A DNA stretch of 64,000 bases from Phycisphaerales bacterium (GTDB taxonomy: Bacteria; Planctomycetota; Phycisphaerae; Phycisphaerales; SM1A02). The notes under the pieces are model-generated. The model had not been told where the DNA came from. It was given only the letters and a program-made list of their open reading frames with translations, and searched no databases. The stretch covers positions 62,001 to 126,000 of the forward strand of contig JASMLR010000003.1 of assembly GCA_030748575.1 (NCBI GenBank), written 5' to 3'. The position numbers and the translations under genes are program-made. Shown piece after piece: positions 37,614-53,686 of the stretch. How positions within the stretch are numbered: position 1 is the first letter of the stretch; every line of letters begins with the position of its first letter.

Positions 37614-40600
37614 ATGGCGATCATGCTGCTCTCAGTGCTGCTGATGCAGGCTGATCCCCAGACACCTGTGGTCCCCGCGGGGTACAGGATTGAGATGGCC
37701 GCCGACGCTCCGGTCATGCTCGATACGGCAGCGTTCTGCTTTGACACTTCGGGCAATCTCTACCTTGCGGAGACGCAGCGGCAGGATCGGGGCGTCGAGG
37801 ACAATCGAAACTCCCCGTTCTGGCTTGTGGACGATCTTGCCTCCCGAACCGTTGATGACCGCTATCGGGTCTTCGAGAAGTGGGCGCACAAACGCGAGAA
37901 CGGGATCGACTTCTACCGAGCGTGGGCCGACGAAGTCGTTCGACTCACGGACACGGATGGTGACGGCGTGTTTGACGAGCGGACGCGGTTTGCGGGCCCG
38001 TTCAACGAAGTCCTCGACGGGGGCGGAGCCGGGCTCCTCTCCATGGGTGGAGACATCTGGTACACGAATATCCCACACCTCTGGAGGCTCCGGGATGTCG
38101 ATGGCGACGGCGTCGCCGATGAGCGGACATCGCTTCACCATGGATTTGGCGTTCGGGTCGCTCTCCGCGGTCATGACATGCATGGCCTGGTGATGGGCCC
38201 GGACGGGCGGGTCTACTGGTCTATTGGTGACCGCGGGTACCACGTCAAACTGCCGGACGGCCGCGTGCTGGAAGACCCACACAGCGGCGCGGTCTTTCGA
38301 TGCGAACCCGACGGCTCGGACCTGGAGGTCTTTCACCGCGGGCTCCGTAATCCACAGGAACTCGCATTTGATCGGTGGGGCAATCTCTTCACCGGTGACA
38401 ACAACTCTGACAGCGAAGATCGCGCCCGTGTCGTCTATGTCGCCGAGGGCGGCGAGACCGGCTGGGACATGGCGTACCAGACGCTTGTCGGGGATAACGA
38501 TCGTGGTCCATGGGTTCAGGAAGGAATCTGGAAAACGGATCATGACGGCCGGCCTGCATGGGTGCTTCCGCCCATCTCGTACATCGGGAGCGGTCCGTCC
38601 GGGCTCACCTATCTCCCCGGGCCGGGGCATGACGATCGATATGACGACCGCTTCCTCCTGTGCGACTTTCGTGGCACTCCTCAGCACAGCAGTGTGCTGG
38701 CGTTCGGTGTCGAGCCGGCGGGGGCGGGCTTTGAAGTGGTGGACATTCACCCGTTTGTCGACGGCGTTCTGTGCACGGACGTCGACATGGGTTGGGACGG
38801 TTCGGTGTATGTGTCTGACTGGGTGCAGGGGTGGGGGAGTTCACAGACTGGCAGGCTGTGGCGGATCACCCACGATGAACGCGCAGCCGCGCCGGTGGTC
38901 GCCGAGGCGGGCCGCATCGCGGCTGAGGGACTCGAAGGCCGGTCCATTGAGGCGCTTTCAGATCTTTTCTCGCACGCTGACATGCGCATTCGACTTCGCG
39001 CCCAGTGGGAACTTGCATCGCGGAAAGAGGCCGGGCTGGCCGCACTGGAGCAGTTGGCCGAAAGCGATCATCAACTCACCCGCCTGCACGCCATCTGGGG
39101 TCTGGGCATGGTTGACCGCCGTATGGGCGGGGGCACGCGTGCCGGTGAGCGTGTTCAGGACCTGGCCTGGCATGACGACGCCGAGACGCGGGTGCAGGCA
39201 GCCAAGGTGCTTGGGGACCTGACGCGTGCCGAAGCCGTTGACGATCTCATCAGTTTGGCCTTTGATGCATCACCACGGGTCGCCTATCACGCGTTGATCG
39301 CGTTGGGGAAGACTGGTGACGCGCAGGCCATCGATGTAGCGGCGGAAGTGCTGTGGGCCAACGCCGATGAAGATCCATGGATCCGCCACGCGTGCGTGAT
39401 GGCGCTCGCGGGCACCAAAGACGAAGAGCGACTCGTTCTGTTGCTCGGTGACGCCCAGCCAGCCGTGCGTCTGGGCGCGGTGCTGGCGCTCAGGCGGCTG
39501 CGGAGCGAGTCAGTCGCTTTGGCGCTCCACGATCCGGATTCGTTCATTGCCGCGGAAGCGGCACGCGCCATTCACGACGCTGAGATTCAGGCAGCCATGC
39601 CGGCGCTGGCCGATGCCGCCGCCTGCCTTCCGCCTGGCGACAGCCGAGCCGCCCGCAGCGTCGGCCGCCGCGCGGTCGAGGCCGCCGTGCGGCGAGGCTC
39701 AGCAGCCGACGCCGAGGCACTTGCCCGCGCAGCATGCCGGGACGACGTTGCACCGATTGTGCGGCTGGAAGCGGCCAGAGGGCTTGCGGATTGGGCGGCT
39801 CCCGGGCCGCGAGACCGCGTGACCGGGCGATTCCGGGACCTGCCCGCGCGTGATGCCGAACGCTGCAGGCCGGCGGTTCAAGCGCTCCTGCCGACGATTG
39901 CATCCGCTGCGGGCGAGTTGGGGGAGCGAGGGCGGGAGGCGGCCGACGTGTTCGGCGTGTCGCTGGACCCCCAGGCGCTCATGGACACGCTCCAGTCGGC
40001 TGATCAGCCCGTGACGACGCGGGTGGACTGCCTGCGCAGCCTCGTTGCCATCGAAGCCTTGCAAGACGCCGCCGTGGATGCCGCGATCAGGAGCGGCCGT
40101 CCGGCGCTCCACGCCGAGGCCATTCGCCGTGCGCGGCCGGATGCCGCCGTCAGATTGGCGCGTGCAGGCCTGGCCGGCACGGCTCCGGAGGTGCACCGAG
40201 CGGCCTTCGAGGTCATTGCAGACGTTGAGGGGCCGCAGGCACTCGCTCAGTTCGAATCACATGTCACCGACGCCACGCGGCTGGACTTCCTGCTGGCGCA
40301 GTCTCCAGGCCGGGACGATGACGCAGCCTGGGCTGCGGCGCTGCACGGAGGTGACCCTCGCCGAGGCCGGACGCTCGCTGAACATCACTCCTCGGCGTCA
40401 TGTCTTCGATGCCACGTCATTGAGGGCCGAGGTGGCATTGCGGGACCGCCGCTCATGGATGTCGGCGCGAGGCTTTCCAGGGCAGACCTGTTGCAGTCGA
40501 TCGTGTCGCCGCAAGCCGTCATCGCGGAGGGGTATGGGGCCATGTCGGCCATGCCGGAGATGCGAGAGACGCTGACGCCCGCCGAAGTTCGCGACATGGT

Positions 40601-40637
40601 GGCCTACCTTGCCACCTGCCGAGGAGCCGAGCATTGA
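37614..40637 (+). CDS. PVC-type secreted propeller-HEAT-cytochrome c protein
   Basis: A 1007-residue exported protein of the planctomycete membrane-bound dehydrogenase type. After a short signal peptide, residues 20-430 form a sugar/sorbosone-dehydrogenase-like beta-propeller with D-x-D-G-D-G calcium loops (LTDTDGDGVFDE, DVDGDGVADE) and GLRNPQELAFDRWGNLFTGDN. Residues 440-900 are HEAT-like helical repeats. Residues 930-934 (CLRCH) bind haem c covalently, with a Met-rich region (GAMSAMPEM) downstream as possible axial ligand. ATG 37614 has GGAGGG before it. Its stop overlaps the TTG start of the next gene. Substrate unknown; the architecture suggests oxidation of a sugar alcohol or similar compound outside the cytoplasm. 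Confidence 0.85.
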   Translation: MAIMLLSVLLMQADPQTPVVPAGYRIEMAADAPVMLDTAAFCFDTSGNLYLAETQRQDRGVEDNRNSPFWLVDDLASRTVDDRYRVFEKWAHKRENGIDFYRAWADEVVRLTDTDGDGVFDERTRFAGPFNEVLDGGGAGLLSMGGDIWYTNIPHLWRLRDVDGDGVADERTSLHHGFGVRVALRGHDMHGLVMGPDGRVYWSIGDRGYHVKLPDGRVLEDPHSGAVFRCEPDGSDLEVFHRGLRNPQELAFDRWGNLFTGDNNSDSEDRARVVYVAEGGETGWDMAYQTLVGDNDRGPWVQEGIWKTDHDGRPAWVLPPISYIGSGPSGLTYLPGPGHDDRYDDRFLLCDFRGTPQHSSVLAFGVEPAGAGFEVVDIHPFVDGVLCTDVDMGWDGSVYVSDWVQGWGSSQTGRLWRITHDERAAAPVVAEAGRIAAEGLEGRSIEALSDLFSHADMRIRLRAQWELASRKEAGLAALEQLAESDHQLTRLHAIWGLGMVDRRMGGGTRAGERVQDLAWHDDAETRVQAAKVLGDLTRAEAVDDLISLAFDASPRVAYHALIALGKTGDAQAIDVAAEVLWANADEDPWIRHACVMALAGTKDEERLVLLLGDAQPAVRLGAVLALRRLRSESVALALHDPDSFIAAEAARAIHDAEIQAAMPALADAAACLPPGDSRAARSVGRRAVEAAVRRGSAADAEALARAACRDDVAPIVRLEAARGLADWAAPGPRDRVTGRFRDLPARDAERCRPAVQALLPTIASAAGELGERGREAADVFGVSLDPQALMDTLQSADQPVTTRVDCLRSLVAIEALQDAAVDAAIRSGRPALHAEAIRRARPDAAVRLARAGLAGTAPEVHRAAFEVIADVEGPQALAQFESHVTDATRLDFLLAQSPGRDDDAAWAAALHGGDPRRGRTLAEHHSSASCLRCHVIEGRGGIAGPPLMDVGARLSRADLLQSIVSPQAVIAEGYGAMSAMPEMRETLTPAEVRDMVAYLATCRGAEH

Positions 40638-43600
40638 AGTCGCTGATCCTCGCCGCAGCCATGGCCGCGCCGTCGCCCTTGCTGCAACTGGAGTCCGGCG
40701 ACACGATCAGCATCGTGGGCAACACGTTTGCTGAACGCATGCAGCACCATCCGTGGTTTGAGGCCGGCCTGCGGGCCGCTCGACCGGAGCTCGACCTGCA
40801 CCTGCGGAACTTCGGGTGGAGCGGAGACGAGGTGGCGATGCAGCCTCGTCCGCTCAACTTTGCTGGCATGCAGGCGCATCTGGAACGCGTTGGAACCGAT
40901 GTCGTCATCGCGTGCTTTGGAATGAACGAGTCCTTCGGAGGCGAGGAAGGGCTGGTTGCGTTTCGCAGCGACCTGGCTGCCTGGCTGGATGCCCACGCTG
41001 GCTACCGCGTCATTCTTGTGTCGCCCATCGCACATGAGTCGCTGGGCGAACGCATGCCGGACGGGACGTCCCACACGTTTGATCTGGGGCGGTACACGCA
41101 GGTGATGCGTGAGGAAGCGGCCAGCCGCGGCGTCGCGTTCATCGATCTTCACTGGCCGACCAGGGAGGCCATGGGCGGCCGCGACGACCTGACCATCAAC
41201 GGCATTCATCTCAACGACGCCGGGTACCGCCTGGTCGCTCGTGAAATGCTCGTTCGTTCTGGAATTGATCCCTCCGGCATGGAGTCGGTGACCGAGCCGC
41301 GTCTGGCAGACATCCGAGAGAAGAACCGATTCGCCTTTGAGCGATTCCGGCCGATCAATACGGAGTATGTCTACGGCAGGCGATTCGAACCGTTCGGCGT
41401 CGACAACTTCCCGCGTGAGATGGACCGGCTGGAGCGTATTGCATTGGAGGCAGACGCGGCCCTGCTTGCGGGCGAGCGTGTCGACGGCGAACGCATCATC
41501 GCGGACATGGAGCCGCCATGGATTCCTGAGGTAGGCGAAGCTGGGTGGGACGAGGTCGCGACGGCTCCGGAGGACCGCGCTGTGCCCGCCGCGGCGGCGC
41601 AGGTGAACAACTTTGTGCTGCCCGATGGATGGTCGATCAACTGCTTCGCCAGCGAGGAAGACTTCCCGGAACTTGCGAATCCCATCGCCATGAACTTCGA
41701 CGGCGAAGGGAGGCTTTGGGTCGTCGTGTCACCGACCTATCCGCACGTTCAGCCAGGCGCGTCACCGGACGACAAACTCATTGTCCTGGAGGACACCGAT
41801 CGGGACGGGCGTGCTGACACGCTCACGGTGTTTGCTGATGGGCTCTACATCCCCACCGGCTTTGCGACCAACGGCGATGAAGCCTGGGTGGTCAGCCAGC
41901 CAAACCTGCTACACGTTGCGGATACGGATGGCGACGGTGTGTCGGATACGCGTGAGATCGTGCTGCACGGATTCGGGCCGGAGGACAGTCACCACGCGAT
42001 GTCGGCCTTCGCCAGGCCGCCTGGAGGGAGTCTGTACTTTCAGGAGGGGACCTTCCACCACAGCCAGATCGAGTCGCCGGCCGGGCCCGCGCGTTCGACT
42101 GACGCGGCCGTGTACCGGTTTGATCCGCACACGGGAGACGTCGAGGTCGCATCGAGTTGGCCATGGGCAAACCCGTGGGGGCATGTCGTCGATCGATGGG
42201 GCCGCAGCATCATCACGGACGGGACGAGCGCAACCTCCCGGCGGCTGAGCCACATCGCCGGCGCGCACCAATATCCGGATGACCTCAAGGGAGATGCGGC
42301 GATTCGCGGCGTACCGTCATTCACGCCGGCCAATCGTCGGCCGGGTGGCGGTACCGAGATTCTCGGCGGCGCGCACGTGGGCAGTGATGCGCAGGGCCGC
42401 CTTGTGATTCCGCAGAACATTGGATACCACGGCCTGCACTGGTACGACCTGAGCGAAGTCGACTCCGGGTTTGCTGCCGAGCCGATCGATCCGGACTTCG
42501 TGTACTCCAGGGACCCGACGTGCCGGCCGGTGGATGTCGAAGTGGGGCCCGATGGCGCGGTCTACATGCTGGACTGGTCCAACCCGATTGTCGGTCACAT
42601 GCAGTTCAGCGTGCGTGACCCGCGGCGAGACCACACCCATGGCCGTGTGTGGCGCATCACGCGGGACGATCAGCCGCCCAACGACTGGGCCCAACGCAAG
42701 ACGTTGGAAATCCCCGCGCTTCTGGAAGCGATCAAGGGAACCGATCCCTGGGCCGTTCGCCGCAGCAGACTGGAGTTGCACCGTCGTCCGTCAGATGAAG
42801 TGCTTCCAGAGGCGAAGGCGTGGGCGTCGGGTTCAGAACGCGACCTGCTCGAGGTCCTGTGGCTCCATCAGGCACATGGCGTGGTCGATCCAGACCTGCT
42901 GGATCGCGTTCTTGCCTCGGAGGACCCGAGGGCCCGGGCCGCGGGCGTGGCGGTGCTCAGCGCATGGCGTGACGACGTCGATCCGCTGCCGCGGTTGCAG
43001 CGGGCGGTGCTGGATGCAGATGCCGGTGTTCGGCTCGAAGCCATCCTCGCTTTGGGCTTCGTGCAGGACCCGCGGTCGGTGGAACTGCTGGCGCTGGCCA
43101 TGCGGCAACCGGTGGATGCCGGGATGCGGGCAGTCCTGACGCGATCGCTGCACATGCTGGAGCCGTGGGGGACGCCAGGCGGCCCGGGTACCGAAGCGTG
43201 GAGGCTGCGGAAACTCGATGACGCGGCGCTTCTGGCTGCGCCCCTCGGATTCTTCTCGGCTGCGGAGCGGCTGCATCGCGGCTCGCTTGATCGGGAGGTC
43301 CGCATGGAAGCGGCCGCGTGGCTTGCGGCCCAGTCGGGCCGCTCGGTGGTCGCCGAGGTCTGGGATGCGGCGAGGACGATGCCGACCGGAGGGGCCGCGG
43401 ATCTGCTTTGCTCGATGGATCCCGAAGCACTGGGCACGATTGAGGACGCGCTCAGCGAAGCGGCAGCAGATCACGCCAGCGGCGCGGTGCGGCAGTTGGC
43501 ATGGGCCGCCATCGCGGGCATGTGGGGCTGGGATCGCGCGTGGGAGGCCGCCCACGAGCCACGCTCCACCAGGTCTCGCGTGGACCTGCTGGAAGCCCTG

Positions 43601-44683
43601 GCTGTCTGGCCGCAGGCTGGCAGGGACGGGGCAGACCAGGCTGTGGCCGGCATGCTTGCGGGCGGCCCGATGCCCGAACGCCCCACGCTGCGTGGCGGCC
43701 GCGTACGCGTCGAATTGGAGGGGTCGGCCACGCTCACGCTGGCCGAGGTGGAGGTCTTCAGCGGCAGCGAGAACGTCGCCCTCGGTCGGCCGTGCGCGCA
43801 GTCGACCACGAACTGGGACGGGGTTGCAGGAAGGGCGGTCGACGGGGACTCCACCGGGGCATGGGCCGCCGGCACGTCCACGCACACACGCGAAGGTGCG
43901 CCCGCGCCGTGGTGGGAGGTGGACCTTGGAGCGGCCGCGCCCATCGATCGGATCGTGGTGCACAACCGAACCGACCGGCCGTATCACAAGCGGCTGGATG
44001 GGTATCGGGTTCGCGTCTTGACGGAGACTGGCGAGGAGGTCTGGCTGAGCGAGCGTCGACCGGCCCCCGAGTATCGCGATGAGATCGTGGTCGGCGGCGA
44101 TGCAGACGATCCGGTGCTGGCTGCAGCCATGCATGCGCTTGCGGCGATGTCGCCCACGACGGAGACGGTTGCGGTGCTGCAGAAGTGGGTAGAAGGTGGC
44201 CGTGACCATCTGCGGATGGAAGCGGTCGAGGCGATGGACCGGATTGCACTCGACCGCTGGCCGGCTTCGGCGGTGCGGTACCGGCCGGCCCGCATTCGTA
44301 TCGAGGCGGTTCCCCACAAGATGGTCTATGACACCACGCGGTTCGATGTGACTGCAGGACAGTTCGTTGTGATTGAACTGGTCAATGCCGACGACATGCC
44401 GCACAACCTGGTTGTTGCCAAGCCAGGTTCCCTTCGCCGCATTGGCCGCGCCGCCGACGCTCAGGGCATGGATGGCGATGCCGCAGCACGAGGGTACGTG
44501 CCGGATGATGCCGGCATTCTGCACGCCACTCCGCTCGTTTTGCCTGGGGAGACCGGGACGGTGCGGTTCTTTGCGCCAGATCGGCCTGGCCGGTATCCCT
44601 ACATCTGCACCTATCCGGCGCACTGGCAGATGATGAATGGCGTGATGGGTGTGAAGCAATCGCGTGTTGAGAAGAATCCCTGA
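40634..44683 (+). CDS. Giant secreted SGNH-propeller-HEAT-discoidin-cupredoxin protein
   Basis: A 1349-residue protein. A short signal peptide is followed by: an SGNH-hydrolase-like domain (about 20-215: GWSGDEV, FGMNESFGGEEG, NGIHLNDAGY with His192); a PVC-type propeller (about 325-680); HEAT-like helices (about 690-1010); a discoidin/F5-8C-like segment (about 1030-1130: AVDGDSTGAW, WWEVDLGAAAPIDRIVVHNR); and a C-terminal cupredoxin (about 1225-1345) with type-1 copper ligands His1257, Cys1325, His1330 and Met1333 or 1334. The normal SGNH Ser (GDS) reads GNT and the D-x-x-H Asp is Asn, so esterase activity is doubtful. The start is TTG 40634, coupled to the preceding gene. The last 154 bp of similarity recur at 48351. 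Confidence 0.85.
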   Translation: MKSLILAAAMAAPSPLLQLESGDTISIVGNTFAERMQHHPWFEAGLRAARPELDLHLRNFGWSGDEVAMQPRPLNFAGMQAHLERVGTDVVIACFGMNESFGGEEGLVAFRSDLAAWLDAHAGYRVILVSPIAHESLGERMPDGTSHTFDLGRYTQVMREEAASRGVAFIDLHWPTREAMGGRDDLTINGIHLNDAGYRLVAREMLVRSGIDPSGMESVTEPRLADIREKNRFAFERFRPINTEYVYGRRFEPFGVDNFPREMDRLERIALEADAALLAGERVDGERIIADMEPPWIPEVGEAGWDEVATAPEDRAVPAAAAQVNNFVLPDGWSINCFASEEDFPELANPIAMNFDGEGRLWVVVSPTYPHVQPGASPDDKLIVLEDTDRDGRADTLTVFADGLYIPTGFATNGDEAWVVSQPNLLHVADTDGDGVSDTREIVLHGFGPEDSHHAMSAFARPPGGSLYFQEGTFHHSQIESPAGPARSTDAAVYRFDPHTGDVEVASSWPWANPWGHVVDRWGRSIITDGTSATSRRLSHIAGAHQYPDDLKGDAAIRGVPSFTPANRRPGGGTEILGGAHVGSDAQGRLVIPQNIGYHGLHWYDLSEVDSGFAAEPIDPDFVYSRDPTCRPVDVEVGPDGAVYMLDWSNPIVGHMQFSVRDPRRDHTHGRVWRITRDDQPPNDWAQRKTLEIPALLEAIKGTDPWAVRRSRLELHRRPSDEVLPEAKAWASGSERDLLEVLWLHQAHGVVDPDLLDRVLASEDPRARAAGVAVLSAWRDDVDPLPRLQRAVLDADAGVRLEAILALGFVQDPRSVELLALAMRQPVDAGMRAVLTRSLHMLEPWGTPGGPGTEAWRLRKLDDAALLAAPLGFFSAAERLHRGSLDREVRMEAAAWLAAQSGRSVVAEVWDAARTMPTGGAADLLCSMDPEALGTIEDALSEAAADHASGAVRQLAWAAIAGMWGWDRAWEAAHEPRSTRSRVDLLEALAVWPQAGRDGADQAVAGMLAGGPMPERPTLRGGRVRVELEGSATLTLAEVEVFSGSENVALGRPCAQSTTNWDGVAGRAVDGDSTGAWAAGTSTHTREGAPAPWWEVDLGAAAPIDRIVVHNRTDRPYHKRLDGYRVRVLTETGEEVWLSERRPAPEYRDEIVVGGDADDPVLAAAMHALAAMSPTTETVAVLQKWVEGGRDHLRMEAVEAMDRIALDRWPASAVRYRPARIRIEAVPHKMVYDTTRFDVTAGQFVVIELVNADDMPHNLVVAKPGSLRRIGRAADAQGMDGDAAARGYVPDDAGILHATPLVLPGETGTVRFFAPDRPGRYPYICTYPAHWQMMNGVMGVKQSRVEKNP
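44500..44653 (+). repeat. 154-bp direct repeat, copy A
   Basis: This stretch inside the 3' end of the cupredoxin gene is repeated at 48351-48504 in the same orientation with three mismatches in 154 positions. It encodes the copper-binding C-terminus (PDDAGILHATPL through MNGVMGV). The two copies bracket a lower-GC island. Confidence 0.93.
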
Positions 44684-44884
44684 AGACTGACCTCACATTG
44701 CTCGGGAAACGGCTTTGCACGCTCCTTCGATCTCAGTGGCGGCAGGGTGGCTGGGACAGCTGTCCTGCCCGCAGGACTCCGGTTACAGGATTCGAACGGT
44801 GCGCGCATAGTGGGCGTTCATGAACGGAGTATGATGTGCAAGCAGTCGGGAGGACAGGGACGCGGGTCGGCGTAGGGATCGCAC

Positions 44885-45571
44885 ATGACTGAACGGAAAC
44901 GCGAACACTTTCCTCCGACGCTGAACACCTGGATTGGCGCGAAGTTGAGAGATGGCACGCTGGGGCGTGGCGAAGTCAATCGACATGTCATGGAAGCGTA
45001 CGAAGGTCCGCTGCGAATCTACTTGCTCGGTACAAGTTGGCGCACGCTCGGCGAACCAGAAGACATCATCAATGGATTTCTTGCTGATCGATTGGATCGC
45101 GAGGAGTTCTTTGAGAAGTGGCGCGGCAGCGGAAAGAGGCTACGGCATTGGCTCATCAATGCGCTGCACTTCTACTTGAAGGAGTTGTGGCGGAGAGATA
45201 AACGGCACGATGCCGCGAGTTTGAATGCATCAGCCGATGAGGTGGACGATGCTCCGGGTGTGTTTGACAGAGAGTTGGATCGGTCTTGGGCGAGGTCGGT
45301 CGTGTCAGCAGCGTGCCGTGATGCGCAGGCAACATGCCAGGCAGATGGCCTGGAGGATCACTGGCGACTGTTTCTTCGCCACCATATGGATGGTGTTTCG
45401 TATCGACAGTGTGCTGTAGAGTTTGGCGTGGACCCAAAACGCTGCGCCGTGATGGTTCGCACTGCATCCACCAGGTTTCGTGAGGCCATGCAAGAGAGAC
45501 TTCGGAAGGACGGTGTGCCTGAGGTGGAACTCGATGCAGAACTCGCACACTTGCAGGAGGTCATTTCATGA
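44885..45571 (+). CDS. Divergent ECF-type RNA polymerase sigma factor
   Basis: A 228-residue protein with a sigma-70-like layout. Residues 35-105 fit region 2 (MEAYEGPLRIYL, EDIINGFLADRL, KRLRHWLINALHFYLKELWRR). Residues 158-205 fit region 4, with a helix-turn-helix at VSYRQCAVEFGVDPKRCAVMVRTA. Length and the long inter-domain linker resemble planctomycete ECF factors. ATG 44885 is 201 bp past the cupredoxin gene. The stop overlaps the ATG of the unknown 155-residue protein, so the two are co-translated. Base composition is lower in GC than the surroundings. Confidence 0.72.
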   Translation: MTERKREHFPPTLNTWIGAKLRDGTLGRGEVNRHVMEAYEGPLRIYLLGTSWRTLGEPEDIINGFLADRLDREEFFEKWRGSGKRLRHWLINALHFYLKELWRRDKRHDAASLNASADEVDDAPGVFDRELDRSWARSVVSAACRDAQATCQADGLEDHWRLFLRHHMDGVSYRQCAVEFGVDPKRCAVMVRTASTRFREAMQERLRKDGVPEVELDAELAHLQEVIS

Positions 45572-46035
45572 GCCACGAGCATGAGACGATCAGTACCAGT
45601 GGTGATGATGATCCGGCGCTGCATACGCTTCTGGAGATTGCCCGATCGCAGGAAACCCGTCCGACAGTTGCGCTCTTGAATCGGCTGAAGGCTGCGGACG
45701 GGTTGAACTGGCTTTGTGAGGCATTGGCAAGAGATTGTGATGGCAATGCGGTAGATGCCGAGGCGTTGCTGTGCACACCCGATGGCGATGTGGAGTTTCT
45801 TCGAACCCAGTATGGCGTTGCCAAGCAGTGTTTCCATGGAGCGAGGAATAGCGAGGAGCGACTGCGGGGGCTGTTGTGGTATCTCCTCATTATGGCTGCA
45901 GCTGCGGCGCATCACGACGAACGGCTTTCAAGTCAGCCCGCTGGCGTCATCAGCAACGCTTTGCTTGAACTGGCACCAGACCTTGCTGATCCGTGGGGCG
46001 ATCTGCTTGCGAGCGGGGCCTTGGCGATTGATTGA
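45568..46035 (+). CDS. Unknown protein coupled to the sigma factor
   Basis: A 155-residue mostly helical acidic protein with no signal peptide, membrane span or familiar motif. Notable segments are LNRLKAADGLNWLCEALARD and GLLWYLLIMAAAAAHHDERL. Its ATGA overlap with the sigma-factor stop suggests a partner or modulator of that factor, such as an anti-sigma protein, but there is no zinc motif (HxxxCxxC) and no membrane helix typical of known anti-sigma factors. Assignment is therefore only by position. Confidence 0.6.
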   Translation: MSHEHETISTSGDDDPALHTLLEIARSQETRPTVALLNRLKAADGLNWLCEALARDCDGNAVDAEALLCTPDGDVEFLRTQYGVAKQCFHGARNSEERLRGLLWYLLIMAAAAAHHDERLSSQPAGVISNALLELAPDLADPWGDLLASGALAID

Positions 46036-46044
46036 ACCTCATTG

Positions 46045-46086
46045 CAACACCCCGCCGGAGGCCAGATGGCCTGCGACGGGATGTTG
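46045..46086. terminator. Terminator-like hairpin between convergent genes
   Basis: CAACACCCCG (46045-46054) pairs with CGGGATGTTG (46077-46086) in 9 of 10 positions, and AGGCC/GGCCT (46059-46063 and 46068-46072) forms an inner stem around AGAT. It lies between the unknown protein and the leftward subtilase, so it may end both transcripts. Confidence 0.5.
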
Positions 46087-46115
46087 ACCGTGCTCCGTGT
46101 GTGATCGGTATCAGT

Positions 46116-48191
46116 TCATTCGCAGGATCCCCATGACTCGAGGACGTGGATGAGATCGGTCACCCCAACGGCTCCGTCACCATCGACGTCTGATGAGCAT
46201 GAGTTGTCGGGCGGGTCAGCGTGATCACAATCGTCTTCGCTTTCCAGAGCAACCATGCGATCTTGAATGGCGTGGCCTCCCAGGCCGGTCATGGCAGCTT
46301 GCGAGTCGAACGCGGGAACATCCAGCCACGTCATACGGATGCGCCCATCTTGGAAGAGTTCAAGCTGCATTGTGTTCTGTGGCTGGTTATCCCAGGCAGA
46401 GTAGGCCGGAACTGCGATCCACGAGAACGCGATTCGGTCAGAACGCCTTGTGACGCGAACGCTCCCTGCAGTCGACGGATCGAGATCGGTGTACATCGGC
46501 GCGATGCGAGGGGCGGAGGAGAAGTTCTCAACGGAGGGATTCTCGTTTGCCCAGGGAGCATTGGTGAAGGTCACGCAGCCATTGCTGTGCACCTGCACAC
46601 TGCTATAGGTATGGCCGGCGTAGTCGAAGTCCCAGTCCAATTCGACCCAGGCGGATGTGTCGTCCTGGAGATTCAGATCGTCACCACCAGAGGGAATTGG
46701 AAGTGTGGCCACACCGTGTTCGCTGCACATAGACCAATCGCTGCCATTGGGTTCAAAGATCGTGGACATGTTCTGAGGTCTGCTTCCTGAGTGCTGCAGA
46801 AGTCCATAGACATCCGTTTCGCCCGGGCCTGCGTCAAATGCGGTGATTGCGGCTGCGGCATCGAGCATGCCTCCGGTTTCAGTTGTGCTTGAAAGGTTGT
46901 TGAGCAGACGGACAGATGAGAGGATCGCGTGTTTCATCTCAGATGCTGTCGCAGTGCCGTTGCTGCGTGCAAGCAAGAGAGCAGCCACACCAGCGACATG
47001 AGGGCTGGCCATTGAGGTGCCATTGAATGACACATATTGGTTGCCTGGGACAGAACTGACGATGCCCCAGCCTGGCGCTGCAAGGTCTACACCTGCGCCA
47101 CGATTCGAGAATGACGCCAGGGCTCCATCGGGCTGCAGTGCGGCAACCGAGATGATGCAATCCAGGTCAAAGGCAGCCGGGTAGCCACATGCTCCACCGT
47201 CATTGCCTGCTGCAAACACAAAGAGATGGTCAAAGTTGGTCCCCGCAGCTTGCATGACGTCGTAGAGGCCACTGTGATATCCGCCACCTCCCCAACTGTT
47301 GTTGGAGATTCTCGCGCCATTGAGAACAACATACTCAATAGCTTCCATAGCGTCGGTGGACGTTCCAGTCTCTGCACCGATGAATTGTGCGGGCATGATG
47401 GCCGCGCCCGGCGCGACACCAGCAATGCCGGTGTTGTTGGTCCCAGTCGCTGCGACTGTACCTGCCGTATGCGTTCCATGATCCATTGGGATGGAGTCCG
47501 CTTGATTGTTCCGGAAATTCCATCCATGGATGTCATCGACGTAGCCATTGTTGTCGTCATCGATGCCATTTGACGGGTCTTCATCATGGTTGGTCCAGAC
47601 GATGTCCATCAATTCGTCATGATTGACATCAACGCCACTGTCGATGACAGCGACGACAACGCCATTGGCATCTGGTTGCATGTCCCATGCTTCTTCCGCG
47701 CGAACATCAATTCCAGGCGTTCCAGACTTCCAGACGCCGTTGCATTCAACATCCTGACCGGTGTTCTTGAGGCCCCAGAGTTCATCCCACATGGGCTCGC
47801 TGTTGCCTGTGGTTTGCAGCAAGTATGAGGGATGTGAATAGAGAACGCCTTCATCTCGCCCGCGAGCAGCCTGGAGACCCTTGGTCACACTCTCTTGAAT
47901 CTCGAGGACCATCAGGCCAGGAACAAGTTGTGATTCCCAGCGGAGGGAGCCACGGGTTTGAGAGAGAATTGACTGAAGTGATGCATTGGCCTTTGATCGA
48001 TGAGAGGTGTCGAAGCGCACGATGAGTTGACCGGGGTTGTGAGCCTTGGAAACCAGTTCCTCAATTGAAGCTGCATTGACTTTCTCGTGAGGATGTATGG
48101 CCGAAGGTGCTGTTGTCGCTGCAACCCCGAAGGTGTTACTGAGAAGGGTGAACCCAGTGAGTGCGACTGCTGTCGCCTGAGACATGGACAT
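46116..48191 (-). CDS. Secreted subtilisin-like serine protease (S8) with dockerin-like tail
   Basis: A 691-residue exported protease. The signal peptide covers about residues 1-25 and an inhibitor-like propeptide about 40-125. The catalytic domain (about 160-450) has Asp184 in VIDSGVDVNHDE, His238 in MDHGTHTAG, the oxyanion Asn330 in FAAGND and Ser393 in NGTSMASPHVAG, with a calcium-rich insert GIDDDNNGYVDDIHGWNF. Residues 480-660 form a beta-rich domain with NGCVTF. The last 26 residues (SSDVDGDGAVGVTDL, then LESWGSCE) are a single dockerin/EF-hand-like repeat. ATG 48191 has AAAGGAG upstream. It lies in the lower-GC island, opposite to the sigma factor. Confidence 0.92.
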   Translation of the reverse strand: MSMSQATAVALTGFTLLSNTFGVAATTAPSAIHPHEKVNAASIEELVSKAHNPGQLIVRFDTSHRSKANASLQSILSQTRGSLRWESQLVPGLMVLEIQESVTKGLQAARGRDEGVLYSHPSYLLQTTGNSEPMWDELWGLKNTGQDVECNGVWKSGTPGIDVRAEEAWDMQPDANGVVVAVIDSGVDVNHDELMDIVWTNHDEDPSNGIDDDNNGYVDDIHGWNFRNNQADSIPMDHGTHTAGTVAATGTNNTGIAGVAPGAAIMPAQFIGAETGTSTDAMEAIEYVVLNGARISNNSWGGGGYHSGLYDVMQAAGTNFDHLFVFAAGNDGGACGYPAAFDLDCIISVAALQPDGALASFSNRGAGVDLAAPGWGIVSSVPGNQYVSFNGTSMASPHVAGVAALLLARSNGTATASEMKHAILSSVRLLNNLSSTTETGGMLDAAAAITAFDAGPGETDVYGLLQHSGSRPQNMSTIFEPNGSDWSMCSEHGVATLPIPSGGDDLNLQDDTSAWVELDWDFDYAGHTYSSVQVHSNGCVTFTNAPWANENPSVENFSSAPRIAPMYTDLDPSTAGSVRVTRRSDRIAFSWIAVPAYSAWDNQPQNTMQLELFQDGRIRMTWLDVPAFDSQAAMTGLGGHAIQDRMVALESEDDCDHADPPDNSCSSDVDGDGAVGVTDLIHVLESWGSCE

Positions 48192-48350
48192 TGTGAACTC
48201 CTTTGCGTGGTACTGGGCAAGTAGCCGCCAGTACAGACAGCAGCGGCGCGGGCATTGCGGCGCAGGAATTGGGAGAAATCTTGAGGTCCCGCGAGAGACC
48301 CTGCCAAAGGCCATGGGATGCCGAAAAACACGGGTCTGTGGGGTGCGGCG

Positions 48351-48504
48351 GCCGGATGATGCCGGCATTCTGCACGCCACTCCGCTCGTTTTGCCTGGGG
48401 AGACCCGGACGGTGCGGTTCTTTGCGCCAGATCGGCCTGGCCGGTATCCCTACAGCTGCACCTATCCAGCGCACTGGCAGATGATGAATGGCGTGATGGG
48501 TGTG
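48351..48504 (+). repeat. 154-bp direct repeat, copy B
   Basis: Second copy of 44500-44653, identical at 151 of 154 positions. The three changes are G to C (Gly to Arg), T to G (Ile to Ser, just before the copper Cys) and one silent G to A. It marks the right boundary of the lower-GC island. Confidence 0.93.
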
Positions 48505-48525
48505 CGACGCCCGCCACGGGACTGA
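48351..48525 (+). pseudogene. Cupredoxin C-terminal fragment
   Basis: The right-hand repeat keeps the reading frame of the cupredoxin end (PDDAGILHATPL to MNGVMGV) and then runs into RRPPRD and a stop at 48523-48525. The copper ligands Cys, His and Met are present, but the N-terminal strands with the first His ligand and any start signal are missing, so it cannot make a working domain. The tail after the repeat differs from that of the intact gene and may be the original gene end (inference). Confidence 0.75.
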
Positions 48526-48641
48526 ACGGTCCCAGGCGGCCTTGCGGATCGCCAATACTCCCTGAACAGACTCTGAACAACAGGTCCTGACCATTCCCTC
48601 CTCAACGTGGGTCGCATTGACCTGCCAGAGGAGACAGTCTC
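48505..48641 (+). promoter_or_regulatory. Upstream region of porin with Pho-box-like repeat
   Basis: Two identical 7-mers, CTGAACA at 48562-48568 and 48573-48579, are separated by 4 bp, giving the 11-bp period of a PhoB box (two 7-mers spaced by 4). A weaker third unit may be GTCCTGA at 48584-48590. The sequence differs from the E. coli consensus CTGTCAT but keeps its CTG start. The box ends about 60 bp before the porin start; the porin's ribosome-binding site is GGAG within AGAGGAGACAG. Confidence 0.45.
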
Positions 48642-50072
48642 ATGAAGACGCGTGTCATTTCCAGTCTTGTGGCTGCGGGCCTGGTCGTTCCTGCTCTCGC
48701 CGAGGACTTCCGTGACCAGGAGGTTGCTGAGTTGCGATCCATGGTCGAAGCGCTGAAGGGCGAAGTCGACGTGCTTCGTGCTCAGGGCTCGGATCAGTGG
48801 CTCAATGAGCAGCGAAGCGAGCAGATTCGTGGCATCGTTCAGGATGTGCTTGCCGACGCCGATACTCGCGCGTCCCTGCAGGGCAGCGGCGCAACCAGCG
48901 GCTACAACCGCGGGTTCTTTGTGCAGTCTGCCGATGGAAACTGGAAGATGAAAGTCAACGGCCAACTGCAGGTCCGGTGGAACTACAACCACGCCCCCGA
49001 CGGCGACGCTGCAGTGGGCGGTGGTCCGGTCAGCGATCAATACGGATTCCACGTCCGCCGTGCCAAACTCAAATTCAGCGGCAACGTAATTGACCCGAGC
49101 TGGACCTACAAGACCACGCTGGTCAGTGAGCGGAACGGTGGCAATGGGAACACCTATCTTGAAGACGCCTGGGTCAACAAGAAGCTGGATGACGGTTGGT
49201 ATGTCAAGGTCGGCCAGTTCAAGGCACCCTACCTCCGCGAAGAACTCGTCAGTTCCGGCGCGCAACTGGCCGTTGAACGATCCATGATCAACAACCAGTT
49301 CACCTATGGTTGGGCCCAGGGCGTTGAACTCGGATCCAAGTCCGATGACCTCTGGGGTCGAGTCTGGTATGGCGACGGTCCGAATTCTCTGAATGCGGTC
49401 GGCAGTGTCAGCAGCACAGCCGCCCTGACCGCTCGCGTCGACTACAAACTGGCCGGAGATTGGAAGGACTGGAAGACGTTGACGGGCCGCGGGCTCAAGA
49501 GTGACTCGTACGCCTTCATCGGGGCGGCGTTCGAGTGGTTCAACATGAGCGAGGATCGCGCGAACAGTGATGTTGAGTATGGCGGGGCGGATGCAACACG
49601 CAGCTACGGCTTCACCGTCGACGCGACATTCGGCGGGCAAGGCTGGATCGCCTACACCTACTTCGCCTACGCCAATGGGAAGAACGCAGGCGGGGCGAAC
49701 CCAGACGAAGCTGAGGGATGGGGATGGGTGGCGCAGGGTGGCTTTGATGTCGCCGACAACGCGCAGTTGTTCGGCCGCTACGAGCTTGGCGACATCACCA
49801 ACTTCAGCGGCCTCTCTGGTGGTGGCGTCGCTGCCGTCGGAAACCGAAACGGGCACGACAGCACGCTCACGATGGGTCTGAACTACTGGCCCTCCGGTAT
49901 CAAGAACGTCAAACTCACAGCCGATGTCGGCTATGCCTTCTCGTTCCTGAATGACGGCGGCAACGTTCCGAGCGCGGACTACACCAGTTCCGGCAACGGC
50001 TGGCGTGGCGACTCCAACGGCTCCGATGGAGGCCAGTGGCTCCTACGAGCGCAGATGCAGTTGCTCTTCTGA
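48642..50072 (+). CDS. Phosphate-selective-type porin (OprO/OprP family)
   Basis: A 476-residue outer-membrane porin. The signal peptide ends at VPALA (residue 20). Residues 22-75 are a helical coiled-coil segment (VAELRSMVEALKGEVDVLR). The barrel starts at about 95 and contains FHVRRAKLKFSGNV, WTYKTTLVSE and VGQFKAPYLREELVSS, all typical of the OprO/OprP family, and ends in the C-terminal Phe (AQMQLLF). Homologues take up phosphate or polyphosphate when phosphate is scarce, but family specificity is broad. A Pho-box-like repeat lies upstream and a strong terminator downstream, so it is probably a single-gene unit. Confidence 0.85.
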   Translation: MKTRVISSLVAAGLVVPALAEDFRDQEVAELRSMVEALKGEVDVLRAQGSDQWLNEQRSEQIRGIVQDVLADADTRASLQGSGATSGYNRGFFVQSADGNWKMKVNGQLQVRWNYNHAPDGDAAVGGGPVSDQYGFHVRRAKLKFSGNVIDPSWTYKTTLVSERNGGNGNTYLEDAWVNKKLDDGWYVKVGQFKAPYLREELVSSGAQLAVERSMINNQFTYGWAQGVELGSKSDDLWGRVWYGDGPNSLNAVGSVSSTAALTARVDYKLAGDWKDWKTLTGRGLKSDSYAFIGAAFEWFNMSEDRANSDVEYGGADATRSYGFTVDATFGGQGWIAYTYFAYANGKNAGGANPDEAEGWGWVAQGGFDVADNAQLFGRYELGDITNFSGLSGGGVAAVGNRNGHDSTLTMGLNYWPSGIKNVKLTADVGYAFSFLNDGGNVPSADYTSSGNGWRGDSNGSDGGQWLLRAQMQLLF

Positions 50073-50098
50073 TCCAACCCACAGCGGTTCCAACGATC

Positions 50099-50131
50099 AC
50101 ACCTCGCCCCGGCTTCGTCGGGGCGAGGTGT
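50099..50131. terminator. Strong intrinsic terminator-like hairpin
   Basis: A perfect 13-bp stem (arms around CACCTCGCCCCG and CGGGGCGAGGTG) with the 7-nt loop GCTTCGT, 27 bp after the porin stop and 14 bp before the end of the leftward debranching-enzyme gene. It probably serves both convergent transcripts. Confidence 0.8.
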
Positions 50132-50144
50132 CGTTCTGGACCTT

Positions 50145-52085
50145 TCAGATGACGCGAACGCTCGGGAGCGTCGCCGGTTGGAGCGACCTGACGAGTTCGG
50201 CCACCGACCACGCCTGGGCTGGACACCCATGCGGCTCATGAGGCGCGTCGCCGTCGTAGACCTCCGCAATCTGCCCGGTGCATCCGTGATCCAGGGATGC
50301 GAGCAGGCCGGCCGTGCTCCGGCGAATCAGGTCTTCTGCCTCACGCGGGTCGTGCCAGGTTCTTCTGACGGCGTCGCACCACGGCCCGATGAGCCACGGC
50401 CAGACGGTCCCGTTGTGATAGGCGGTATCTCTGGAACGCATATCGCCGTCAAACCGCCCTCGGTACGCCGGGTCGGACGGCGCCAGTGTTCGCAGCCCGA
50501 CCGGCGTCAACAATTCTCTGGTGACGACTTCCAGCACCCGGCGTTGTCGGGTTGGAGACAAGGGACTCCTGGGGAGTGAGACGGCGAACAGTTGGTTTGG
50601 CCTGATCTGCGGGTTTCCGACCCAGCGGCCGTCCTTCAACGCAAGCACGTCATAGAGGCACCCGGCGTCCTCGTTCCAGAATGCGTCGAACGCGTCGCTG
50701 GTCGCGCAGGCTGCTTCAATCATCCACTTCGATTCGCCCGGAAGCAGCGTGGCCAGAAGCCGCAAGCCGCTGTGCCACAGCGCGGAGAGTTCCACGGGCT
50801 TGCCGATACGTGGCGTCACGGCGACGCCATCGATGCGGGCATCCATCCAGGTCAATGCTTCTCCCTCAATCCCAGCCTCAATGAGTCCGTCGGCGGCGAC
50901 GCGGACGCCGGGGCTCGCCCCGTCAAGGTGCGCGCGGGCGATGTCGAGGCAGGCGGCGAGTAGGGGATCGGCGCCAGGTGCGATCAGAGGACCGCCGGCC
51001 TGATCGACATAGGCGTGGACGGCGTGCAGAAACCAGAGGCTGGCATCGGCTGTGTTGTAGTGCGCCGTCTCGTCGTCCCGATCGTCGAACCGATTCGGTA
51101 TGAGGCCATCCTGTATCCGGCCGGCAAAGGTCTCCAGCACGGTGCGCGCTTCGTCAAGTCGGCCGGTAGCCAGAAGCAACCCTGGAAGGGCGATCATGGA
51201 GTCGCGGCCCCAATCGGCAAACCACGGGTACCCGGCAATGATCGAAGCGCCCGGAGTAGCGGCATCTGAACCTGCTCTCGCCACCACGAACTGGTCCGCC
51301 GCGGCCGCGAGCCGCGGGTCGATCTGCTTGATCTGGTGGGTCGAGGCTGATGGAGGAAGGGGCACAAAGGCATCCATCTCCGCCGTCAATTCGAACCAGG
51401 GTTGACCCTTCGTGAGTTGCACCTCGACGGTTGAGGCGGCGAGTGAACACTCGCGGTGGTCGTAGCCCCGCTCGCGTTCGATCGGGTACTCAAACTCATG
51501 CCACCAATCCGAATCGCCAGACCACTGCCCGCGGCTGCACCGAAGCACGAGTTCGTGCCCGTCACGCTCGGCTCGGAGCGTGCGGCCTTGTCGCGTAAGT
51601 GAGATGCCGCTTGGGAGGTTGTTGAGTGCGTGAAAGTCCCGGAGCAGGAGCAGGGGTCTGACCCGAAGCGTCGCGGACTGCGGGGGCGTGTCGACTTGCC
51701 ATCGAACCGTGCAGGCGTTGAAGCCCTGCTGCACCGTCAGTGTTCTGCTGATGGTGGTGCCTGAGGGCAGACTCCATCGCCAGACGGCGGATGAGAGGTC
51801 ACAGTCGAAGCGCAGCAGTTTCGTCCACCCGTCAGGTTTGGGGTCCGAATCATCTCGAAAGAGGAAGTTCGATAACGGCGTCTCCCCGTCGCCGGGCAGG
51901 GTGATTGAATCGATGACATGGTGCAGTGCCATGATGCGTTGGACGGGAGGTGATGCTGCGCCCACGAGCAGGCCGTGATACCGGCGGGTCGGAACACCGC
52001 AGGCCGTCCCCATCGCGAAGCCGCCCAGGCCATTGGTCAGCAGCCACTCCCGGTCCATCTCCGGCCTGGCGTCGTGGTGCATCAT
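50145..52085 (-). CDS. Glycogen debranching enzyme (amylo-alpha-1,6-glucosidase)
   Basis: A 646-residue enzyme of the archaeal/bacterial GDE type, which hydrolyses alpha-1,6 branches of glycogen. The N-terminal domain opens REWLLTNGLGGFAMGT (12-27) with RRYHGLLVG. The C-terminal (alpha/alpha)6 barrel holds GYPWFADWGRDSM (285-297), NTADASLWFL and YHNGTVWPW, with the family's conserved Asp residues. It is the last gene of the leftward ppgK-pgi-debranching operon; its ATG overlaps the pgi stop by one base. Glucose or glucose phosphates released would feed directly into its two upstream neighbours. Confidence 0.9.
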   Translation of the reverse strand: MMHHDARPEMDREWLLTNGLGGFAMGTACGVPTRRYHGLLVGAASPPVQRIMALHHVIDSITLPGDGETPLSNFLFRDDSDPKPDGWTKLLRFDCDLSSAVWRWSLPSGTTISRTLTVQQGFNACTVRWQVDTPPQSATLRVRPLLLLRDFHALNNLPSGISLTRQGRTLRAERDGHELVLRCSRGQWSGDSDWWHEFEYPIERERGYDHRECSLAASTVEVQLTKGQPWFELTAEMDAFVPLPPSASTHQIKQIDPRLAAAADQFVVARAGSDAATPGASIIAGYPWFADWGRDSMIALPGLLLATGRLDEARTVLETFAGRIQDGLIPNRFDDRDDETAHYNTADASLWFLHAVHAYVDQAGGPLIAPGADPLLAACLDIARAHLDGASPGVRVAADGLIEAGIEGEALTWMDARIDGVAVTPRIGKPVELSALWHSGLRLLATLLPGESKWMIEAACATSDAFDAFWNEDAGCLYDVLALKDGRWVGNPQIRPNQLFAVSLPRSPLSPTRQRRVLEVVTRELLTPVGLRTLAPSDPAYRGRFDGDMRSRDTAYHNGTVWPWLIGPWCDAVRRTWHDPREAEDLIRRSTAGLLASLDHGCTGQIAEVYDGDAPHEPHGCPAQAWSVAELVRSLQPATLPSVRVI

Positions 52086-53686
52086 CAGGATTCGCGCATG
52101 GCCGCCACTTCTGCGGCGAGCCCTCGGCTCACTGCGTCTCCGGAGACCGGACCTTCGCCCGTGAGACCTGGGAGGATCTCACCAGCGAGCACCTTTCCAA
52201 GTTCGACCCCCCACTGATCGAACGAGTCGATGCCCCACACGGCGCCTTGCGTGAACACGCGGTGTTCGTACATGGCGATGAGGGCGCCGAGCCGCTTCGG
52301 ATCGAGCCTTGGGTAGAGGATGGTCGTCGACGGCCTGTTGCCGGGCATGACCTTATGCGGGGCCAACTCTGGTGGTGTTCCGTCTTCGATGACCTCCTCC
52401 AGCGATCTTCCGCGAGCGAGGGCTTCGGCCTGGGCAAGGCAGTTGGCGATGAGCATGTCGCCTCGCGCGTCGGGGCTCGGCTCGCATGAGGACGCGGCCA
52501 CGAGGAAGTCGCAGGGGACCAGAGTCGTGCCTTGATGGAGCATCTGGTGGAAGGAGTGCTGCCCATTGGTGCCAGGTGCGCCCCAGACCACCATGGACGT
52601 GCCCTTCGACGTGGGCGTTCCGTCCAGCCGGGTTCGCTTTCCGTTGCTCTCCATCTCAAGTTGCTGCAGGTAGGCCGGGAGCATGGAGAGATGTTGGTCG
52701 TAGGGCAGCACGGCGCGGCTCTGGCAGCCCCAGCAGTTTCGGTACCAGCAGTCGAGCAGCCCCAGCAGCATCGGAACATTCTGCTCGGGCGCGGCCTCGC
52801 GAAAGTGTGCGTCCATGCCGTGGGCACCTTCGAGCATGTCGAGAAACCGATCGAAGCCGATGGCCGCGGCAATGGAGAGGCCGATGGCCGACCACATGGA
52901 GTACCGCCCGCCGACCCAGTCCCAGAACTCAAACATGTTCGCAGTGTCGATACCGAAGGCGGCGACGCGCCCTGCATCGGTCGATACCGCCACGAAGTGC
53001 CGCTCGACCGCGTCCCCACCCAGCGCATCGACGATCCACGATCGCGCCGCATGGGCGTTTGCGAGCGTTTCCTGCGTCCCGAAGGTCTTGGATGCCACGA
53101 TGAACAACGTCCGCGCGGGGTCAAGGGACGCGACCGTGTCTGCAAGGTGCGACGGGTCGACGTTTGAGACAAAGTGGGCTCGGATGCCGCTGGTCCACCA
53201 GGGGCGAAGGGCTTCGGTAGCCATCCTGGGCCCCAGGTCCGATCCGCCGATGCCGATGTTGACAACATCGGTGATCCGCTCGCCTGTGGCACCCCTCCAG
53301 TCGCCCCCATGAAGAGCCGCGCAGAAGGCCTGCATTCTCCTGAGGACGTCCCGCACGCCGGGCATCACGTCGACGCCGTCGACCAGCATCGGCCGGTCCG
53401 ACTGGTTGCGGAGCGCCACGTGCAGGGCCGCCCGATGCTCGGTCGTATTGACGGGCTCGCCGGCGAACATGGCGTCCCTGAGACGCTCGACATCGCGTTC
53501 CCGAGCCAGCGCCACCAGCAGCCCCAGCGTTTCTTCGGTGGCGAGGTGCCGCGAGAGGTCCACGGTCATGCCGTCCAGTGAATGGACGAATCGGTCGCGG
53601 CGACCAGGTGCGTCACACAGTGCGGCGAGTGACACGTCGTTGAGGGCATCGCGATGGTCCGAAAGGGCGTCCAAGGCGTGGCTCAT
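52085..53686 (-). CDS. pgi: Glucose-6-phosphate isomerase
   Basis: A 533-residue enzyme interconverting glucose-6-phosphate and fructose-6-phosphate. GIGGSDLGP (145-153), SKTFGTQETLAN, the LPYDQHLSMLPAYLQQL segment ending in ESNGK, GTNGQHSFHQMLHQG with the catalytic His, and QWGVELGKVLA with the catalytic Lys are all present. Its ATG overlaps the stop of the glucokinase gene (ATGA) and its stop overlaps the debranching-enzyme ATG. The length is close to E. coli Pgi. Confidence 0.96.
   Translation of the reverse strand: MSHALDALSDHRDALNDVSLAALCDAPGRRDRFVHSLDGMTVDLSRHLATEETLGLLVALARERDVERLRDAMFAGEPVNTTEHRAALHVALRNQSDRPMLVDGVDVMPGVRDVLRRMQAFCAALHGGDWRGATGERITDVVNIGIGGSDLGPRMATEALRPWWTSGIRAHFVSNVDPSHLADTVASLDPARTLFIVASKTFGTQETLANAHAARSWIVDALGGDAVERHFVAVSTDAGRVAAFGIDTANMFEFWDWVGGRYSMWSAIGLSIAAAIGFDRFLDMLEGAHGMDAHFREAAPEQNVPMLLGLLDCWYRNCWGCQSRAVLPYDQHLSMLPAYLQQLEMESNGKRTRLDGTPTSKGTSMVVWGAPGTNGQHSFHQMLHQGTTLVPCDFLVAASSCEPSPDARGDMLIANCLAQAEALARGRSLEEVIEDGTPPELAPHKVMPGNRPSTTILYPRLDPKRLGALIAMYEHRVFTQGAVWGIDSFDQWGVELGKVLAGEILPGLTGEGPVSGDAVSRGLAAEVAAMRES

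Follow-up and report, generated by a model that had tools for sequence, protein, structure and literature searches.

A doubled gene end around three genes of foreign composition in a Phycisphaerales genome: a candidate scar of gene import from a congener

Introduction

Integrative elements that occupy the 3' ends of protein-coding genes, such as e14 in icd, duplicate the gene end: the element, which encodes an integrase, supplies a replacement end and the old end is displaced. Here we describe a doubled gene end in a stretch of 64,000 nucleotides (the window) from a draft genome of a Phycisphaerales bacterium (GenBank assembly GCA_030748575.1, contig JASMLR010000003.1, positions 62,001 to 126,000 of the forward strand; all positions below are those of the window unless a contig handle precedes them). 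The 3' end of a gene encoding a large protein with an azurin-like domain is present twice, and between the two copies lie genes for an extracytoplasmic function (ECF)-like sigma factor, a helical protein that we call X, and a subtilase (together, the trio). We hold it somewhat probable that a congener of lower GC was the recent source of the trio, that the gene end common to both species guided the import, and that the displaced end was left as a scar.

In Escherichia coli, 14 sequenced clones had duplications of 109-950 bp after single crossovers between the chromosome and a circle from which part of the homologous piece was missing, and in the sections of that study concerned with them the authors leave undecided whether an older loss or linearisation and re-closing of the circle was responsible (PMC3240628). 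For type VI secretion system (T6SS) loci of Vibrio, the relevant part of another study proposes a process like homology-facilitated illegitimate recombination (HFIR) that adds modules and leaves old immunity genes downstream, and likewise orphan 3' parts of Rhs genes (PMC5361080). In Streptococcus pneumoniae, transformation has been described, in the portion of the report that bears on this, as giving rise to duplications by unequal crossing-over (PMC3784515).

Results

The direct repeat consists of two 154-bp copies on the forward strand, at 44500-44653 (copy 1) and 48351-48504 (copy 2), which are identical at 151 of 154 bases, exactly as described in an earlier note that a model had made from the sequence alone. 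The three mismatches (copy 1/copy 2: 44555 G/48406 C, 44604 T/48455 G and 44617 G/48468 A) leave exact runs of 55, 48, 12 and 36 bases, well past chance expectation. Both edges are sharp. The nearest flanks, 30 bp on the left and 40 bp on the right, align no better than shuffled sequence (324/500 and 174/500 shuffles, respectively, scored at least as high), while for longer flanks the counts were 158/500 (120 bp, right) and 19/500 (150 bp, left), the latter slightly over chance. Copy 1 lies in frame within the azurin-like domain and holds the motif CTYPAHWQMM, presumably the copper loop known from azurin. The gene to which it belongs (40634..44683, forward strand) was called a cupredoxin gene in the earlier note; Pfam and NCBIfam show the part so named to be the azurin-like C-terminus of a 1349-aa multidomain protein that also has GDSL lipase, DUF7133/PVC-type, HEAT and F5/8 C matches. 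The repeated piece is the 3' end of this gene, whose codon usage is like that of the rest of the genome.

Copy 2 consists of a gene end alone. It is flanked by the subtilase start on one side and a porin gene on the other, retains a Copper-bind match, and is in frame with a short tail and stop of its own. At the right join (48350/48351) the sequence shows a duplication rather than a deletion. Where 6/6 aligned genes have I or V, copy 2 has undergone a change from I to S; it is therefore probably no longer kept, and we view it as probably a decaying remnant, the displaced gene end. The repeat is about as long as one short read and the source genome (G000) is a 2.38-Mb draft in 85 contigs, features that would suit an assembly artefact in which two strain variants were merged into one contig. 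We consider such an artefact most improbable: the longest exact shared run is 55 bases, and the usual final word lengths of assemblers exceed this; the join between the subtilase gene and copy 2 is unique sequence that a wrong path would not create; and a separate assembly, that of the congener G001, matches the gene order.

The trio differs clearly from its surroundings in base composition. As background, 127 open reading frames (ORFs) of at least 150 aa were taken from nine 20-kb stretches of G000, and 120 were kept after seven had been dropped for non-coding-like GC at the codon positions. The sigma, X and subtilase genes have GC contents of 0.556, 0.575 and 0.559, against a background mean of 0.644 (sd 0.021, n=120), and values for GC at third codon positions (GC3) of 0.585, 0.583 and 0.585, against a mean of 0.744 (sd 0.047, minimum 0.630, n=120). 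No background ORF (0/120) was as low as the trio for GC, GC3 or codon likelihood, and several of the lowest look spurious, which would make the comparison conservative. The earlier note's observation that the three genes are lower in GC than their flanks is thus sustained. The foreign composition fits that of G001, where background GC3 averages 0.602 (44/46 ORFs kept) and the trio orthologs are typical, ranking 14, 13 and 18 of 44. In G000 and G001, respectively, GC3 is 0.585 and 0.57 for sigma, 0.583 and 0.56 for X, and 0.585 and 0.60 for the subtilase, while the neighbouring genes differ between the two genomes, at 0.76 and 0.63 for the azurin-domain gene, 0.74 and 0.65 for the porin gene, and 0.75 and 0.60 for an amylo-glucosidase-like gene.

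A search of the genus covered nine genomes, and the gap behind the azurin-domain gene could be read in five of them (G000, G001, G006, G007 and G008). In G004 and G005 the contig stops at the end of the gene or inside it, G003 gave no match to the gene, and G002 gave weak partial matches only. In G006 and G008 the azurin-domain gene runs directly into the porin gene with a single gene end, an empty site, whereas in G000 direct repeats flank the insert. These two genomes, which belong to other species, supply the empty site that the earlier note had proposed to look for among relatives. The relatives do not all carry both copies with the same genes, the pattern that the earlier note would have read as an old duplication: G006 and G008 are empty, and G007 carries other genes, namely a 236-aa protein, LemA and a homocysteine S-methyltransferase. 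The G001 gap contains a 240-aa relative of the 236-aa protein, LemA, an EF-hand-like protein (Pfam gives a weak EF-hand match only), an FG-GAP protein and then the trio. A DUF3137 label for the 236- to 240-aa proteins was dropped because Pfam assigns them no family. This variable content stands within a region, 34.7-62.9 kb, of conserved gene order, a contrast that we count in favour of import. G001 and G007 show no other step larger than 1.5 kb there; a last step flagged in G001 arises because the reciprocal-best search takes the LemA of the gap. In G008 there is one further differing step, the amylo-glucosidase-like gene being missing.

The two copies of the gene end have different tails. 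After the residues VMGV, copy 1 continues into KQSRVEKNP and a stop (tail 1; 44654..44683, forward strand), which is absent from copy 2, while copy 2 is followed in frame by RRPPRD and a stop (tail 2; 48505..48525, forward strand). After the same V, the empty-site genes end in RRR (G008) and RSR (G006), and an outgroup gene (L109) in VRP. In G001, which carries the trio, the tail (V-KRSAARSDR) is similar to tail 1 (V-KQSRVEKNP); the tails of G004 (V-HQATGQSTSD) and G007 (V-RRFDQAGN) fit neither type well. To judge from the Arg-rich tails of G006, G008 and L109, the azurin-domain gene probably ended in tail 2 originally. The distance from its stop to the porin start is 116 bp; for G008 the corresponding distance is 125 bp, and for G006 about 255 bp. 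The spacer behind copy 2 gave its best alignment with the gene-porin gap of G008 (z 5.2, 0/200 shuffles), a match that consists largely of porin promoter and has the tails out of register; in all, 108 spacer pairs were tested and four exceeded z 3, one of them with an unrelated spacer. The protein encoded by the azurin-domain gene is 60-68% identical to its five full-length congener orthologs. With the two copies 98% identical, the duplication is therefore young too, and foreign composition and repeat identity, as two signs of youth, point to one recent event.

Relics of the gene end were sought in the gaps of G001, G007 and G006 and at eight other trio, sigma-X or subtilase loci, and every profile match except copy 2 itself had an E-value of 0.3 or worse. 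At the nucleotide level, 17 of 18 pairs fell inside the range of 200 shuffles. The remaining pair (copy 2 plus spacer against the subtilase-porin spacer of G001, scoring 131 against a shuffle maximum of 121) was judged to reflect mainly the shared porin promoter, its extension into copy 2 looking spurious.

The arrangement of a sigma-like gene followed by an X-like one is found repeatedly, in this genus as well as in some others. The pair adjoins a GAPDH gene in G004 (L066 7003-8911) and G006 (L064 3323-5338), as does sigma on a cut contig in G003 (L072 1-1080); neither the pair nor sigma was seen beside the GAPDH gene in G000, G001, G005, G007 or G008. G007 has the trio in the same convergent layout near zinc-transporter-like genes, and in G004, G005, G006 and G008 the subtilase gene has no sigma or X gene within about 1.5 kb, or its contig is cut. 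The names GAPDH, AtpG-like and zinc transporter are presumptive, given from the look of the sequences. A FastTree tree built from a concatenation of four proteins, in which missing pieces were entered as gaps, had the order (((G000,G004),G001),G007),(G003,G005,G006),G008, with a support of 0.879 for G000 and G004; single-gene trees differ from it. The subtilases of G000 and G001 are nearer to those of G005 and G006 (both partial) than to those of G004 or G007, contrary to this species tree. This comparison suggests that the trio has moved within the genus.

No integrase or transposase family was found in the sigma factor, X or the subtilase, and 13 overlapping ORFs (80 aa or longer) called mechanically between the two copies had no Pfam family at E 0.01, in keeping with the earlier note's statement that no integrase is present; six insert proteins of G001 and G007 were likewise searched and gave none. 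Nor did ARAGORN detect a tRNA gene as target in 40000-53000 (0 genes), or Rfam any RNA gene at E-values up to 1 in 44000-49000 (0 matches). The sigma factor, the one trio protein searched against plasmid and phage collections, had no match there, and one 36-base pattern searched in viral contigs had none. A PHROGs protease family match of the subtilase was read as general subtilase similarity. These results bear on the proposal, made in the earlier note, of a dedicated recombinase-free cassette: a circle with the gene end as attachment site, inserted by host recombination and capable of clean excision. Its anatomy fits, and the gap genes do differ among G000, G001 and G007 and are lacking from G006 and G008, as a cassette site would have it. 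We nevertheless deem it very unlikely, given the lack of an integrase family and the unmatched sigma factor. The role of the gene end as attachment site in particular was not borne out: no second gene-end copy was found in the G001 or G007 gap, and sigma-X, trio or subtilase genes occur at other sites in the genus, with a gene-end copy in 0/8 such loci searched.

The sigma gene (44885..45571, forward strand) is a composition outlier encoding 228 aa, and its assignment comes from weak matches, below the curated cut-offs, to TIGR02937 (17.8 bits against 42.9) and Sigma70_r4_2 (14.7 against 25.7), together with an AlphaFold model (mean pLDDT 83.3). Among the first 13 PDB rows that Foldseek returned for this model, 10 name a sigma factor, two name AlgU, which we take to be a sigma factor too, and one names a transcription initiation complex; 0/279 matches reach E 0.001 (best 5.3e-3) and the first rows have TM-scores of about 0.2-0.3, for which a different placement of the two domains may be responsible. 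A sequence search of solved structures gave a single match, at E 0.24, which is not meaningful. The gene for protein X (155 aa; 45568..46035, forward strand) overlaps the sigma gene by 4 bases. X is predicted to be almost wholly helical (model mean pLDDT 81.6); Pfam gives no family to seven aligned X proteins, 0/308 Foldseek matches had E <= 0.001, and the best VIA-align Z was 4.4, under the level meaningful for helical proteins. A sigma gene with an overlapping partner suggests a sigma/regulator pair, with X as the candidate regulator. The subtilase gene (Peptidase_S8, Pfam PF00082, E 1e-51; 691 aa; 46116..48191, reverse strand) is convergent to the pair. Its start was set by eye at the ATG at 48191, and the mechanical ORF extends to 48380, inside copy 2. 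To judge by eye from its N-terminus, the subtilase would be secreted, and it may be a target of the sigma/regulator pair or a part of its signal path. A promoter and terminator scan found no promoter-like sites (0, against 1.6 in shuffles) and two terminator-like sites (3.1 in shuffles), both within the sigma gene.

The next gene after the insert encodes a Porin_O_P porin (48642..50072, forward strand). In front of it lies CTGAACAGACTCTGAAC (48562..48578, forward strand), a Pho-box-like perfect direct repeat of the form CTGAAC-N5-CTGAAC, 63 bp before the porin start. With up to one mismatch allowed, the 64 kb hold this match alone, where 0.28 were expected and 26/100 shuffles had at least one; degenerate versions with similar spacing precede the porin in G006 and G008. 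Its spacing is like that of a Pho box.

Several further features of the neighbourhood were recorded. The GDSL part and the DUF7133-azurin part form one gene in G000, G001, G004, G006, G007 and G008, and two adjacent ORFs in 7/7 related loci annotated (L107, L108, L109, L110, L113, L114 and L115). A CxxCH heme motif is absent from the azurin-domain proteins of G000, G001, G008 and L109, though TIGR02604 is named for one. The amylo-glucosidase-like gene follows the porin gene in G000, G001, G005 and G007 and is lacking in G008 (L025 10230-11903) and G004 (L070 638-3772). The LemA behind the azurin-domain gene in G001 and G007 is a second, diverged one with its 236- to 240-aa partner (L023 6698-7982; L022 6532-7804), 16-21 kb from the resident LemA (62899-63516 in the window). 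Relatives of the G007 S-methyltransferase, 57-62% identical, are on other contigs in G000, G001, G004 and G008.

Discussion

The favoured import would start from a recipient in which the azurin-domain gene ran directly into the porin gene. The shared 3' end of that gene would guide recombination with a fragment carrying tail 1 and the trio. On the left side the recipient gene would be joined to the incoming tail 1 and trio, and on the right the incoming DNA would meet the recipient gene some 154 bp before its end, so that the original end (copy 2 with tail 2) would be displaced downstream, beside the porin gene. Two routes could give this product, either one crossover with a self-closed fragment or one homologous end and one illegitimate join. 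We propose that the azurin-domain gene thereby keeps a full copper-binding domain with a new tail. The earlier note had envisaged a single crossover with a circle carrying the gene end. The anatomy, the foreign composition and the empty sites agree with this, while the trio in the same gap of G001 without a second copy speaks against it, and one-ended or two-ended recombination with congener DNA explains the data as well as a circle. Throughout, we infer the donor, the direction of transfer, the crossover at the gene end and the status of tail 2 as the original end.

Several observations weigh against an import of this kind. G001 holds the trio in the same gap, in the same order and orientation, without a detectable second repeat copy, so its presence there needs no such event, and profile searches found no gene-end relic in the G001 or G007 inserts. 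The gene end of a donor from another species should be well below 98% identical to that of the recipient. Two such similar copies would need a same-species donor, later gene conversion, or a crossover right at the gene's end: if both copies came from the recipient, the crossover must have lain at that end, and if one came from the donor, then either donor and recipient were conspecific or the copies became alike afterwards. The argument from tail 2 consists of a few residues and one spacing, with G006 at about 255 bp. No empty-site strain of the G000 species was seen among the genomes searched. In the part of the window upstream of 34.7 kb, four further steps, measuring 1.6 to 11.9 kb, set G001 apart from G000, and gene-content change is therefore not unique to this gap.

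Part of this evidence leads to a different history, in which the trio has been in the gap since before G000 and G001 split. Later, in G000 only, template switching or a similar process would have placed a copy of 154 bp of the gene end in the spacer between subtilase and porin genes, or a same-species chromosome with an empty site would have recombined on one side, adding the gene end. The shared gene content, order, orientation and gap in G001 are what it expects, as are the trees of sigma, X and the subtilase, in 3/3 of which G000 and G001 are sisters (support 0.889, 0.990 and 0.976), as vertical descent predicts; the trio proteins of the two genomes are 65-75% identical, like three neighbours in the block (66, 70 and 75%). 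We think this history possible, though somewhat unlikely, on account of the composition: the trio has a GC3 of 0.58-0.59 where 120/120 sampled G000 ORFs have at least 0.63, and residents since the split should, we reason, have followed the rise in GC. Pure copying, moreover, would leave both the Arg-rich tail, in frame with copy 2, and the spacing that follows it to coincidence.

With import from a congener, as favoured here, the locus looks like a recombination scar of the ordinary sort, left when genes were captured from a relative, and not like a mobile element of a new type. A broader claim strikes us as distinctly unlikely: that throughout the genus genes are captured time and again, with no recombinase, at the 3' end of the azurin-domain gene, where the conserved sequence of the gene end would let host recombination drop different gene sets before the porin gene and copies would persist as short-lived scars. 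If the gap does collect genes repeatedly and no recombinase is involved, homology-guided gene capture would have a natural test case there. To our knowledge, gene uptake in the planctomycete-type group is little documented, and the locus would be a clear young scar of inter-species gene exchange in a genus of this type that is represented by draft genomes.

With the e14 type of element the locus shares the doubled gene end and the displaced old end; unlike those elements, the G000 insert yielded no integrase. With the duplications described for pneumococcal transformation (PMC3784515, in the part concerned) it shares a border of repeats produced by incoming homologous DNA, while the scale differs: about 100 to 900 kb are duplicated there, whereas here 154 bp are doubled and the remainder is foreign. 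The T6SS and Rhs loci, as treated in the pertinent part of PMC5361080, are toxin-immunity loci that exchange effector genes or domains, in contrast to the short copper-protein tail, regulator pair and protease considered here; like our locus, they have new genes behind a conserved anchor and old 3' parts downstream. HFIR proper generally deletes recipient DNA, and the G000 site shows a duplication; the gene end would nonetheless be an obvious homology anchor for an event of the HFIR type. The single-crossover and HFIR events covered by the relevant sections of PMC3240628 were laboratory events with known donors, whereas here donor and event have to be reconstructed from one genome. In both cases foreign DNA enters by one-sided homology, and in the single-crossover class, as at the azurin-domain gene, the homologous piece ends up doubled around the insert.

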